Source: Ruegeria lacuscaerulensis (GTDB taxonomy: Bacteria > Pseudomonadota > Alphaproteobacteria > Rhodobacterales > Rhodobacteraceae). From it: a stretch of DNA of 64,000 bases. Position numbers and translations under genes: made by a program. Under the pieces are notes generated by a model. The model searched no databases and was not told the DNA's origin. It was given only the letters and a program-made list of their open reading frames with translations. Shown here piece after piece: positions 52,182 through 55,273 of this stretch. The stretch is from assembly GCF_013034685.1 (NCBI RefSeq), contig NZ_WQGO01000004.1:62001-126000 (forward strand), read 5' to 3'. Position 1 is the stretch's first letter; each line of letters opens with the position of its first letter.

Positions 52182-52820
52182 TTATGCCGACAAGGCAAAC
52201 CGATGCTGCCGACCAGTGCCAAACGCGGTCTTGAACCAAAGGCGCGACAACTCACGCGGGATACCGGCACGTTCGGCCACGCGGTAGCAATCGTCGGATG
52301 AATAAGGCCACAGCCCAACCGAGATCTGATCCCGCCCCTTCCCTTCCGAGCCAAGTACGACCGGAGACGACCCTATCAGCCGGTAAATCCGGATCATGCG
52401 CGCATCAAACACACCCGCGATATGGGTCAGACCGAACCCTTCCATGATTTCACCCCCGCTCAGCATAATAGCACCGGCGGTATGTGGGCTGGCCGTTCGG
52501 GAAAGGCAAAAGCGTGTCACCTCCCAGATCAGGGGGCTGTTGATCGGTTCACCCCCGGTCAGATGCCCGAATACTTCGTTCACCATAACGCGCCCAGTGG
52601 TAGGCAACACACGCATGGACCCGCCGTGACTACCATCCTCTTCTTCCCAGATAACGTAGAGCGGGTTCAGATCGTCATACTGATCCCTCTCTTCCCCCTT
52701 TTCGTTTATACGCACGTCCCAACCCAGCCGGGTTTTGAATTGATCGGCCCGGTCGCGGAACATTCCGTCGGCGAGATCCGGAAACTTGTGAAGTTCGTCG
52801 GCAAACAAATAGCGCAACAT
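52182..52820 (-). CDS. luxI: acyl-homoserine-lactone synthase
   Basis: A 212-residue LuxI-type synthase that makes N-acyl-homoserine lactone from S-adenosylmethionine and an acyl-ACP. All invariant residues are in place: R24, F28 and W34 in RADQFKTRLGW, acidic residues around 43-49, R70 in GGSMRVLPTT, F84, E100 and R103 in WEVTRFC. I chose ATG at 52820, preceded by GGGGAAAA, over a start 9 codons upstream. The acyl length cannot be predicted. An exact CtrA-type site lies 82 bp upstream, and no canonical lux box was seen. It is the partner of the luxR gene directly upstream. Confidence 0.95.
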   Translation of the reverse strand: MLRYLFADELHKFPDLADGMFRDRADQFKTRLGWDVRINEKGEERDQYDDLNPLYVIWEEEDGSHGGSMRVLPTTGRVMVNEVFGHLTGGEPINSPLIWEVTRFCLSRTASPHTAGAIMLSGGEIMEGFGLTHIAGVFDARMIRIYRLIGSSPVVLGSEGKGRDQISVGLWPYSSDDCYRVAERAGIPRELSRLWFKTAFGTGRQHRFALSA

Positions 52821-52901
52821 GACTTTTCCCCTTGTCGTCCTGTGCAAGAACGAAAGGGGTACAGAGCCATGGTTAAATTACGGTTCGAAGTGCGTGCGGC
52901 C

Positions 52902-52917
52902 GTTAAACGACGATTAA
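52902..52917 (-). promoter_or_regulatory. CtrA-type binding site upstream of luxI
   Basis: On the minus strand the sequence is TTAA-N7-TTAAC, an exact match to the full CtrA consensus, at 52917-52902. It spans the last codons and the stop of luxR (TTA ATC GTC GTT TAA) and ends 82 bases before the luxI start, a good distance for an activating site. The TTA leucine codon inside it is rare in G+C-rich genomes, which suggests selection on the site. Confidence 0.65.
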
Positions 52918-53622
52918 TCCCCGGCTGAGCGCTGTCGCGATCGCGTGGGTGGTATTCTGCGCCCCAAGCTTGGCACGGGCGCTTTCGATATAGACTCGCA
53001 GCGTGTGTTCCGAGATCGATAAGGAATGCGCGACCTGCGCGCGACTATAGCCCAGCGCCAGAAGGGTCATCGCATCCACCTCGCGCGGGGACAGGCCACG
53101 CGGCGCATCGGGCTGGCGGTCGCTTTCAAACTCCAGCGCTTTTCGGTTGAAATAATGCGCAATCAGGATCAGCTCGCGCCCATGGGCGTCGATGAACGCC
53201 TTCCAACTAGCGTCATCGCAGGTGTGGTTCACGGTAAACAACGCAAACTGGCCGTTCGGGCCCCGGATCGGGATCGAATAGCCCTGGTTGCCTACCCCGT
53301 GCTCCAACGCGTCCTGCAGGAAATTCTTCGCCACCTTGCCGGACCAGTCCAGAGATTTCCAATCCACAGGATGAAAGCGCTGAAAACATCCCAGAATGAC
53401 GGGGTCGATACGGTGGTAATTCCGTTCCAGATATCTTTCGGCCCAGGCATCTGGATAGGTCGTATAGCCGTACTGGTCCCCGGCCCCGTCGACCCAATGA
53501 TAGATCAGATGCTCAGTGTGCAATCGGTCGCGTAATCCAAGGGCGACTGCACCCAATTCATCAAGCGTGCTGGTGTTTTCCAAGTCCTCCAGGACCTGAG
53601 CCATATCCAGATCTGTTCCCAT
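52903..53622 (-). CDS. luxR: LuxR family quorum-sensing regulator
   Basis: A 239-residue LuxR-type receptor. The autoinducer-binding domain (about residues 15-160) has the conserved ligand-contact residues W60, Y64, D73, P74 and W88. The C-terminal GerE-type helix-turn-helix (about 176-235) carries LSPREVDAMTLLALGYS and SISEHTLRVYIESARAKLGA. I chose ATG at 53622 (MGTDLDMAQ); a start 7 codons upstream is also open. It lies directly before luxI on the same strand, and its first codons overlap the small upstream ORF by 62 bp. It would sense the signal made by LuxI. Confidence 0.94.
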   Translation of the reverse strand: MGTDLDMAQVLEDLENTSTLDELGAVALGLRDRLHTEHLIYHWVDGAGDQYGYTTYPDAWAERYLERNYHRIDPVILGCFQRFHPVDWKSLDWSGKVAKNFLQDALEHGVGNQGYSIPIRGPNGQFALFTVNHTCDDASWKAFIDAHGRELILIAHYFNRKALEFESDRQPDAPRGLSPREVDAMTLLALGYSRAQVAHSLSISEHTLRVYIESARAKLGAQNTTHAIATALSRGLIVV

Positions 53623-53779
53623 TCGCGGGCGTCCGAGCCTCATCCTTCAAGGACGCAATCTCGGCCGCTGCGATCAGCTTGGTGTCATCCAACTGCTCGG
53701 CAAGGGCGGTCAAACCGTTCTCAACCGCAAAGGCGTTGAGATCCGACAAAACGTCCAGTATCCACTCATTTTTCGCCAT
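53561..53779 (-). CDS. Small conserved-type protein upstream of luxR (72 aa)
   Basis: A 72-residue protein starting MAKNEWILDVLSDLNAFAVE. Its first 50 residues look like a compact helical protein of a kind I associate with Rhodobacteraceae luxR loci. The function is unknown. The last 20 residues are Gly-rich and overlap the luxR start in another frame, so the end may be under double constraint. GGAG stands 9 bases before the ATG. The overlap with luxR suggests translational coupling. A CtrA-type site lies just 19 bases upstream of the start. Recognition of the family is from memory and should be tested. Confidence 0.65.
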   Translation of the reverse strand: MAKNEWILDVLSDLNAFAVENGLTALAEQLDDTKLIAAAEIASLKDEARTPANGNRSGYGSGPGGLGKHQHA

Positions 53780-53798
53780 CTAGAGTCGCTCCGAAACG

Positions 53799-53815
53799 GT
53801 TAACGAAGGGTTAAC
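53799..53815 (-). promoter_or_regulatory. CtrA-type binding site upstream of the small ORF and luxR
   Basis: GTTAAC-N5-GTTAAC at 53799-53815 contains TTAA-N7-TTAAC on both strands, an exact CtrA consensus. It ends 19 bases before the ATG at 53779 and 7 bases before the ribosome-binding site. That is too close for a normal activating position for this ORF, so repression, or activation of a message starting at luxR, is more likely. Confidence 0.65.
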
Positions 53816-53920
53816 ACAACCATAACATGTGCAGTGTTTTTTAGGCTATTCACTGGTTTCTACTCCCCAAAAATAGCGGGGCTGGGTTCTGCAAGTCGTT
53901 GAAAAGGATCACCTGCGCAT

Positions 53921-53965
53921 AAAACGCAGCGCGCCCGCGAACCTGACTAACGATTCGCGGGCGCG
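53921..53965 (-). terminator. Intrinsic terminator of ccr
   Basis: CGCGCCCGCGAA (53930-53941) pairs perfectly with TTCGCGGGCGCG (53954-53965), a 12-bp stem with a 12-base loop. On the ccr strand it begins 22 bases after the stop codon and is followed by CTGCGTTTTAT, so the T run starts a few bases after the stem. Confidence 0.75.
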
Positions 53966-53986
53966 ATTTCTGATAGAGCAGGTCGG

Positions 53987-55273
53987 TTATCCGCGTGCGT
54001 CCAGAACCTCTTCCAGAGTCCGCATGCCAGTGCGCGGTGCCTGAACCAGAACCGACATGTTGCCCGGTTTATGTTCGTTGCGCATCATTTTCATGTGGGC
54101 TTCGGGCAGCTCGTTCCACGCAAAGACTTCAGACATGCAAGGGTCCAGACGACGTTCGACCATCAACTGGTTTGCAGCGGACGCCTGTTTCAGGTGCGCG
54201 AAGTGCGAACCTTGCAGGCGCTTCTGGTGCATCCACATGTAACGCACGTCGAAGGTCAGGTTATAGCCGGTTGTTCCGGCGCAGATCACGACCATACCGC
54301 CCTTTTTCACAACGAAGGTCGAGACAGGGAAGGTGCTTTCGCCGGGGTGTTCGAACACCATGTCGACATTCACACCCTTACCGGTGATGTCCCAAATGGC
54401 CTTGCCGAATTTGCGGGCCTCTTTGAACCACTCGGCATATTCCGGCGTGTTGACGGTAGGCAGCTGACCCCAGCAGTTGAAATCTTTGCGATTCAGAACG
54501 CCCTTTGCGCCCAGACCCATCACGAAATCACGCTTGCTTTCATCCGAGATCACACCGATCGCATTTGCGCCCGCCGTATTGATCAACTGGATCGCATAAG
54601 ACCCCAGACCACCCGAAGCGCCCCAAACCAGAACGTTCTGACCGGGTTTCAGATCATGCGGCTCGTGACCGAAAAGCATCCGGTAGGCGGTGGCCAGTGT
54701 CAGCGTATAGCAGGCGCTTTCTTCCCAGGTCAGGTGCTTCGGGCGCGGCATCAACTGCTGCGCTTGGACATTGGTGAACTGGGCAAAAGACCCGTCCGGT
54801 GTCTCATAGCCCCAGATACGCTGGCTGTCGGAGTACATCGGATCGCCGCCATTGCAGGCTTCGTCGTCGCCGTCGTCTTGATTGCAATGGATCACGACCT
54901 CATCACCCACTTTCCAGCGGCGCACTTTGTCGCCCACGGCCCAGACGATGCCCGAAGCATCCGAACCCGCGATATGGAACGGTTGACCGTGACCGTCAAA
55001 CGGGCTGATCGGTTTGCCCAAAGATGCCCAGACGCCGTTATAATTCACACCTGCCGCCATCACCAGAACCAGCACCTCGTGGCTGTCCAGCTTGGGCACA
55101 TCGACCACTTCCAGCTGCATGGCCGTGTCCGGCTCGCCATGGCGCTCCTTGCGGATTGCCCACGCGTACATCTTCTTGGGTACAAACCCCATCGGAGGGA
55201 TCTCACCCATTTCATAGAGGTCTTTTTCCGGCGCGTCGTAGGTCGCGATACCGCTTTCGGTGTCCAAAGCCAT
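53987..55273 (-). CDS. ccr: crotonyl-CoA carboxylase/reductase
   Basis: A 428-residue NADPH-dependent enzyme of the medium-chain dehydrogenase/reductase superfamily. It reductively carboxylates crotonyl-CoA to ethylmalonyl-CoA, the key step of the ethylmalonyl-CoA pathway for acetate assimilation. The cofactor loop is GASGGLGSYAIQLINTAGAN, and the family-specific segments HCNQDDGDDEACNGGDPM and EHPGESTFPVSTFVV are present, the former near the CO2-binding region. I chose ATG at 55273 behind GGAGG; the frame runs 29 codons further without a ribosome-binding site. ecm, the next-but-one pathway enzyme, is encoded 1.6 kb away on the other strand. Confidence 0.97.
   Translation of the reverse strand: MALDTESGIATYDAPEKDLYEMGEIPPMGFVPKKMYAWAIRKERHGEPDTAMQLEVVDVPKLDSHEVLVLVMAAGVNYNGVWASLGKPISPFDGHGQPFHIAGSDASGIVWAVGDKVRRWKVGDEVVIHCNQDDGDDEACNGGDPMYSDSQRIWGYETPDGSFAQFTNVQAQQLMPRPKHLTWEESACYTLTLATAYRMLFGHEPHDLKPGQNVLVWGASGGLGSYAIQLINTAGANAIGVISDESKRDFVMGLGAKGVLNRKDFNCWGQLPTVNTPEYAEWFKEARKFGKAIWDITGKGVNVDMVFEHPGESTFPVSTFVVKKGGMVVICAGTTGYNLTFDVRYMWMHQKRLQGSHFAHLKQASAANQLMVERRLDPCMSEVFAWNELPEAHMKMMRNEHKPGNMSVLVQAPRTGMRTLEEVLDARG

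Follow-up and report, generated by a model that had tools for sequence, protein, structure and literature searches.

The window, a stretch of 64,000 nucleotides of Ruegeria lacuscaerulensis DNA, carries a small open reading frame (ORF), luxR and luxI in this order on the minus strand. ORF calls and domain matches identify luxR (52903–53643, minus strand; Autoind_bind and GerE domains) as SsbR/SilR2 type and luxI (52182–52820, minus strand; Autoind_synth) as SsbI/SilI2 type. Judged by its neighbours and length, the locus is of the SsbRI/SilR2I2 type, closest to ssbRI of KLH11 and not to ssaRI or the solo sscI. The luxI ATG lies at 52820, which leaves a gap of 82 bp after the luxR stop. Lying across the end of luxR is a full consensus box for CtrA, a regulator of the cell cycle and motility. 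This box, TTAA-N7-TTAAC in the form TTAATCGTCGTTTAAC (52902–52917, minus strand), is composed of the final four codons of luxR, its stop codon and the base after it. On the minus strand of the window, luxR ends in GGA TTA ATC GTC GTT TAA, and positions 52917 to 52902 read TTAA-TCGTCGT-TTAA-C, an exact match to the published full-site consensus TTAA-N7-TTAA(C) (PMC4046655, PMC3692519). A sequence-only reading had described an exact CtrA consensus over the luxR stop and facing luxI; its sequence, coordinates and 82 bp distance are all confirmed by the ORFs and the sequence. The junction box stands as described but is one of a set, with another full box before the luxR operon and a half-site nearer to luxI. 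No canonical lux box, the dyad of about 20 bp bound by LuxR, was seen by eye at luxI.

A contig scan for luxI returned 48 loci, and the comparisons below use the window together with 47 of them (48 sequences), L063 having been dropped because its junction is deleted. The half-site, TTAACCAT (52869–52876, minus strand), starts 41 bp downstream of the start of the full box, 48 bp before luxI. It is the published CtrA half-site (PMC3692519), and both the full and the half consensus are matched exactly here. Among the 30 sequences that bear an exact box in luxR, 11 have TTAACCAT as the octamer and 9 have TTAACCAC; full box and half-site are spaced by 41 bp in 26 of the 30 and by 42 bp in the other four, close to four turns of DNA. 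The core TTAAC, about 55 bp before luxI, is invariant in all 34 aligned leaders, which are those of the window and 33 of the 48 loci, picked by eye as alignable (15 excluded).

The second full CtrA box, TTAACCCTTCGTTAA (53800–53814, minus strand), is followed after 20 nt by the small ORF with which the luxR operon begins. In the window and in other loci, it is overlapped by a one-mismatch box, TTATGGTTGTGTTAA. This upstream box is exact in 44 of the 48 sequences; it was not found in L036 and L038 (second synthase copies), L043 (no such luxR recognised) or L049, whose contig ends after 245 bp upstream of luxI. The conserved small ORF (53561–53779, minus strand; 72 aa, beginning MAKNEWILDVLSDL) overlaps the luxR start, and a 70-residue piece of it found no match in Pfam (E up to 0.1) or NCBIfam (E up to 0.001). 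In 44 of the 48 sequences, luxR is preceded and overlapped by an ORF of about 65–75 aa whose conserved N-terminus reads WILDVLxDL or a variant of it. Further upstream, beyond the luxR-operon box, a dyad, CCCGCTATTTTTGGGGAG (53863–53880, minus strand), is kept across genera and is a possible regulator site. As a regulon-wide LuxR box it was rejected, since a genome-wide search with its degenerate pattern found one exact place and one with a single mismatch, against 1 and 4 hits for the controls.

Exact TTAA-N7-TTAA occurs twice in the window against 0.08 expected, a count reached in 0 of 100 shuffles. Over all 33 contigs of the genome (4,603,984 bases) the count is 19, against 38 for the reversed-pattern control; genome-wide enrichment is therefore rejected and the box is rare. 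Two of these 19 bracket luxR. In the 48 sequences (546 kb) there are 77 exact boxes, of which 32 lie before luxI, 44 before luxR and one elsewhere. At the luxR stop, 30 of the 48 sequences carry an exact box; L038 and L047 have theirs outside luxR, at −92 and −90 from luxI, respectively. Among 742 open frames, 33 end in an exact box, namely 30 luxR genes and three antisense frames over the same box. The window shuffles, the counts over the 48 sequences and the 18-mer counts across the genus given below reject a chance origin of the junction box. One other pair of boxes less than 1 kb apart is present genome-wide, at C27:414966 and C27:415600, 634 bp apart and upstream of a sugar transferase gene (L070, G000 C27:413500–417200).

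The sequence-only reading had proposed a search for the motif at related luxR–luxI junctions, and that search came out in its favour: the 18-mer GGNTTAATNNTNGTTTAA is present in 52 of 54 genomes of the genus, once in each, and its reversed control in none (0/54). By their coordinates, 51 of the 52 copies immediately precede a luxI on their own contig; in the remaining genome (G051) the contig ends inside luxI, and the luxR end and the luxI start were found together. Both genomes without the 18-mer are altered at the junction. In G013, luxR runs into luxI through an apparent deletion, and in G030, CTG replaces TTA, leaving the luxR end intact and no full box. At orthologous junctions in Ruegeria and near genera the two TTAA halves are fixed and the spacer is free, and the box is absent from 15 outgroup luxR genes. 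In the wider family, the 18-mer was found in 4 of 295 genomes drawn irrespective of luxI content, and the reversed control in 5 of 295; two of the four matches belong to the same genus, one to another genus with the same luxR–luxI, and one has no luxR there. As far as these sequence counts reach, the junction box is a feature of this clade and not of the family. A LuxI tree of 46 distinct rows, rooted at its midpoint, with poor support inside the clade and a bootstrap that had not settled, places the 30 box-bearing rows in one starred clade of 32, together with L036 and L038.

The luxI gene itself was matched in 54/54 genomes of the genus and is broken in a few. Stops, shifts or a deletion affect it in four (G010, G013, G044 and G053; loci L149, L145 and L150), and the junction box is still exact in three of these, G010, G044 and G053, and not in G013.

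The same arrangement recurs at other synthase copies. The KLH11 genome (G001) gave three synthase hits. The first (C6:683038, L102) follows a LuxR with a GLIVV end and has both exact boxes. The second copy (C5:101358, L097, the same as L038), which we take for sscI of KLH11, has an exact box at −92, 41 bp before TTAACCAT. The third (C6:2441468) is of the long SsaI kind. KLH11 SsbRI/SscI thus resembles the window locus, with both exact boxes at the luxR-linked copy and an exact box at the other. The second copy of S. lacuscaerulensis (L036) carries a one-mismatch box at the same 41 bp spacing, and neither L036 nor L038 has a luxR-like frame within 400 bp upstream of the synthase. In L047, the luxR stop is 230 bp away from the exact box, and box and half-site are 43 bp apart. 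The second copies in G008 and G009 have two-mismatch boxes at −95, at the distance seen in L036 and L038, with exact boxes only at −548 and −585. Because ssbI and sscI are reported to have no flanking similarity in common (PMC3907830), the box arrangement at the second copy would have been either kept or re-made. Three ssaI-type luxI loci (L090, L091 and L092) carry one-mismatch TTAA-N7-TTAA-like sites at about −37 to −54.

A link between CtrA and quorum sensing in Dinoroseobacter shibae, on which the sequence-only reading had drawn, is documented: CtrA control of autoinducer synthesis has already been published there (PMC4046655). Expression of luxI2 and luxI3 is strongly reduced in D. shibae ctrA, cckA and chpT mutants, and the luxR2 promoter contains two perfect CtrA boxes (PMC4046655); CtrA sites at luxI2/R2 were predicted again later (PMC6473078). 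The Ruegeria boxes at 53800–53814 and 52902–52917 precede a luxR–luxI pair, as in the D. shibae luxR2I2-type operon. However, the D. shibae boxes are reported in the luxR2 promoter, whereas Ruegeria has a further box in the 3' end of luxR, facing luxI. For R. pomeroyi, two CtrA boxes were predicted in 2014 for one luxR/luxI pair (PMC4046655, text and Figure 6 legend), which is likewise two boxes in a Ruegeria and probably the same two as here. The passages on that prediction used here mention no positions, stop overlap, codon selection or half-site.

The sequence-only reading had further suggested that signal synthesis may be a direct CtrA target. Conservation in 52 of 54 genomes, codon invariance at the box (see below) and the presence of a CtrA gene support this proposal, and together they suggest that direct CtrA input to luxI is the best reading of this junction. 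In our judgement the box is quite probably a real CtrA site, kept by selection at the DNA level over the end of luxR, at which phosphorylated CtrA would activate luxI and the luxR unit. We favour a CtrA site because the box is exact and rare, keeps its halves around a free spacer, is kept in its codons and is paired with TTAAC at a fixed spacing.

The junction box sits within the operon, with luxR on one side and luxI on the other, no convincing −10 hexamer for luxI was seen in a search by eye, and the upstream box is only about 20 nt from the start of the small ORF, where transcription may start. These features would fit a CtrA that represses or acts as a roadblock, or that tunes read-through from luxR into luxI, rather than one that serves a separate luxI promoter. 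We consider such a role unlikely, as CtrA loss lowers, and does not raise, luxI2 and luxI3 in D. shibae (PMC4046655), and luxI copies with no luxR-like frame upstream keep the box in place, exactly in L038 and with one mismatch in L036.

The codons at the end of luxR bear on whether the box is a protein-binding site at all. The box lies within coding sequence, and the rare TTA could slow ribosomes before the stop, so a by-product of coding, of base composition or of a rare-codon effect on translation coupling has to be weighed. TTA is indeed as rare as the sequence-only reading had assumed, with 32 of 1844 leucine codons (1.7%) in 53 mechanically chosen ORFs of the window. The codon test used only the 30 sequences with the box in luxR and measures codon freedom inside that clade. 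Of 116 luxR columns with an unchanging, degenerate residue, the codon is invariant in only two, TTA and GTT, and from these codons the two TTAA halves are made; a random draw of two columns would pick exactly this pair once in 6670. In these 30 luxR genes, leucine is TTA at this position in 30/30, against 31 of 713 other leucine codons, and pairs of genes differ on average at 54% of the third bases where the residue has at least four codons. No other column of the 116 is codon-invariant. The spacer codons vary, isoleucine being ATA in 25 and ATC in 5 and the next codon GTC or GTG (a leucine in L041), whereas the TTAA halves are fixed. The stop is TAA in 30/30, and TGA is the commonest stop in the window ORFs (27/53). 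Among the 15 outgroup luxR genes, 13 encode the same GLIVV end with other codons (CTG or TTG for leucine) and mostly a TGA stop, and have no box. The claim that the protein alone does not explain the sequence is upheld by this comparison. Because the outgroups encode nearly the same end without the box and the codons of the box are invariant, the box is set apart from a coding by-product; the exact boxes of L038 and L047, in addition, lie outside any luxR end. The by-product reading is largely contradicted, and we hold it to be very improbable. The simplest account is that the box was created by silent changes near the base of Ruegeria and its neighbours.

Elsewhere in the genome, one exact box lies 47 bp before a kinase gene whose best NCBIfam matches are CckA models (a fragment, below the cut-off; L001), and another 48 bp before the gene of a PAS-domain protein (L015), which from its resemblance we take to be DivL. 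In L066 an exact box separates a FliI-type ATPase gene from motB-flgE, in L068 one lies where cpaB is called to start, and in L067 one precedes, by 120 bp, a gene for a PAS protein that weakly resembles MopJ. In L005 an exact box lies 63 bp upstream of a gene for a GerE-domain (LuxR-type) regulator. Other boxes among the 19 adjoin genes with no CtrA link that we know of. CtrA is itself encoded in the genome (L082:1069–1782; NCBIfam equivalog NF045991, 435.9 bits against a cut-off of 350). A different protein with a TTAA-N7-TTAA-like site might use so AT-rich and nearly symmetrical a sequence, but the chances of this are slim, given that the consensus is the published CtrA one (PMC4046655, PMC3692519), that several other exact boxes adjoin gene kinds of the Roseobacter CtrA regulon, namely a CckA-like kinase, motB-flgE and cpaB (PMC4046655, PMC6473078), and that the genome has its own CtrA.

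If CtrA activates at this junction, as we favour, its phosphorylated form would bind the full box and probably, on the same face of the DNA, the half-site as well, and would activate a separate luxI promoter. The second box, before the small ORF, would give the small ORF–luxR unit the same CtrA input. The small ORF–luxR–luxI system (SsbRI type) would then be an output of the CckA–ChpT–CtrA relay. Since SsaRI is reported to switch this relay on in KLH11, the first signal would bring on the second by way of CtrA.

In KLH11, SsaRI raises the expression of ctrA, chpT and cckA, and feedback on ssaRI has been speculated (PMC3692519). CtrA-like sites before cckA were described by Zan et al. as having no effect on cckA expression (PMC3692519). 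Neither SsbR nor SsaR activates ssbI or sscI, and no activator is named (PMC3907830); unlike our reading, the parts of this review cited here do not propose CtrA for ssbI or sscI. Null ssaI mutants have no detectable AHL, though the main AHLs come from SsbI or SscI (PMC3907830). CtrA is a natural candidate for the link between the systems. However, ctrA expression falls about 25-fold in the ssaI mutant (PMC3692519), while ssbI and sscI transcription is not significantly affected (PMC3907830). This result is discordant, as simple activation by CtrA predicts that ssbI and sscI drop once ctrA falls.

The luxI leader may add a second level of control. A hairpin is predicted at 52828–52859 (minus strand), with the luxI Shine–Dalgarno sequence AAGGGG (52833–52828) in its 3' arm. 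In the window, 73 nt fold at −24.7 kcal/mol (z −2.6), a value that 4 of 200 shuffles matched, and 36 of 42 distinct leaders have z below −1.5. Over the 34 aligned leaders, the 12 predicted pairs are formed in 96.6% of cells, against at most 61.8% in slid versions. Two-sided changes number 12 cells against 3.7 in shuffles, and they fall on three pairs, a number equalled by 106 of 500 shuffles and two slid versions. The Shine–Dalgarno sequence is unpaired with a mean probability of 0.18, compared with 0.41 and 0.47 for two sets of control genes, and of 0.19 over 42 luxI leaders against 0.41 for 322 mechanically chosen starts, a noisy control set. Taken leader by leader, its pairing reaches p ≤ 0.05 in 9 of 50 (median p 0.21), with 1 of 57 in controls. 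Rfam gave no match over 52700–54000 up to E 1. With covariation partly supportive and the per-leader test weak, the hairpin was dropped as a main finding, and a fold over the luxI Shine–Dalgarno sequence, as a candidate sequestering leader or RNA thermometer, is a weaker lead. In the window and some relatives, the luxI AUG is also predicted to pair with the bases that directly follow the half-site.

A tentative extension, against which the odds stand, would make CtrA the missing activator of the second Ruegeria system, acting from SsaRI through CtrA on the box at the ssbR end and the box of solo sscI, with the hairpin as a translational gate. If true, such a gate could explain why loss of ssaI removes the SsbI and SscI signals even though transcription is reported to change little.

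CtrA control of autoinducer synthesis in D. shibae and predicted boxes at R. pomeroyi luxRI are already known (PMC4046655). The coding-embedded position, the codon-level evidence, the fixed spacing to the half-site and the arrangement at the second copies appear to be new. The portions of the published accounts of CtrA sites used here hold no coding-embedded full site with a half-site at a fixed 41–42 bp, and a literature search of titles and abstract openings, with subscription papers on ssbI/sscI outside its scope, found no description of a CtrA box inside luxR or of CtrA control of ssbI or sscI. The junction offers a clean example of silent codon choice embedding a transcription-factor site in a coding sequence, and almost a whole genus has kept it. 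It also provides a specific candidate answer to what activates the ssbI and sscI signals of Ruegeria, which both known LuxR proteins are reported not to do. If this is true, CtrA joins two signal systems in these marine bacteria.
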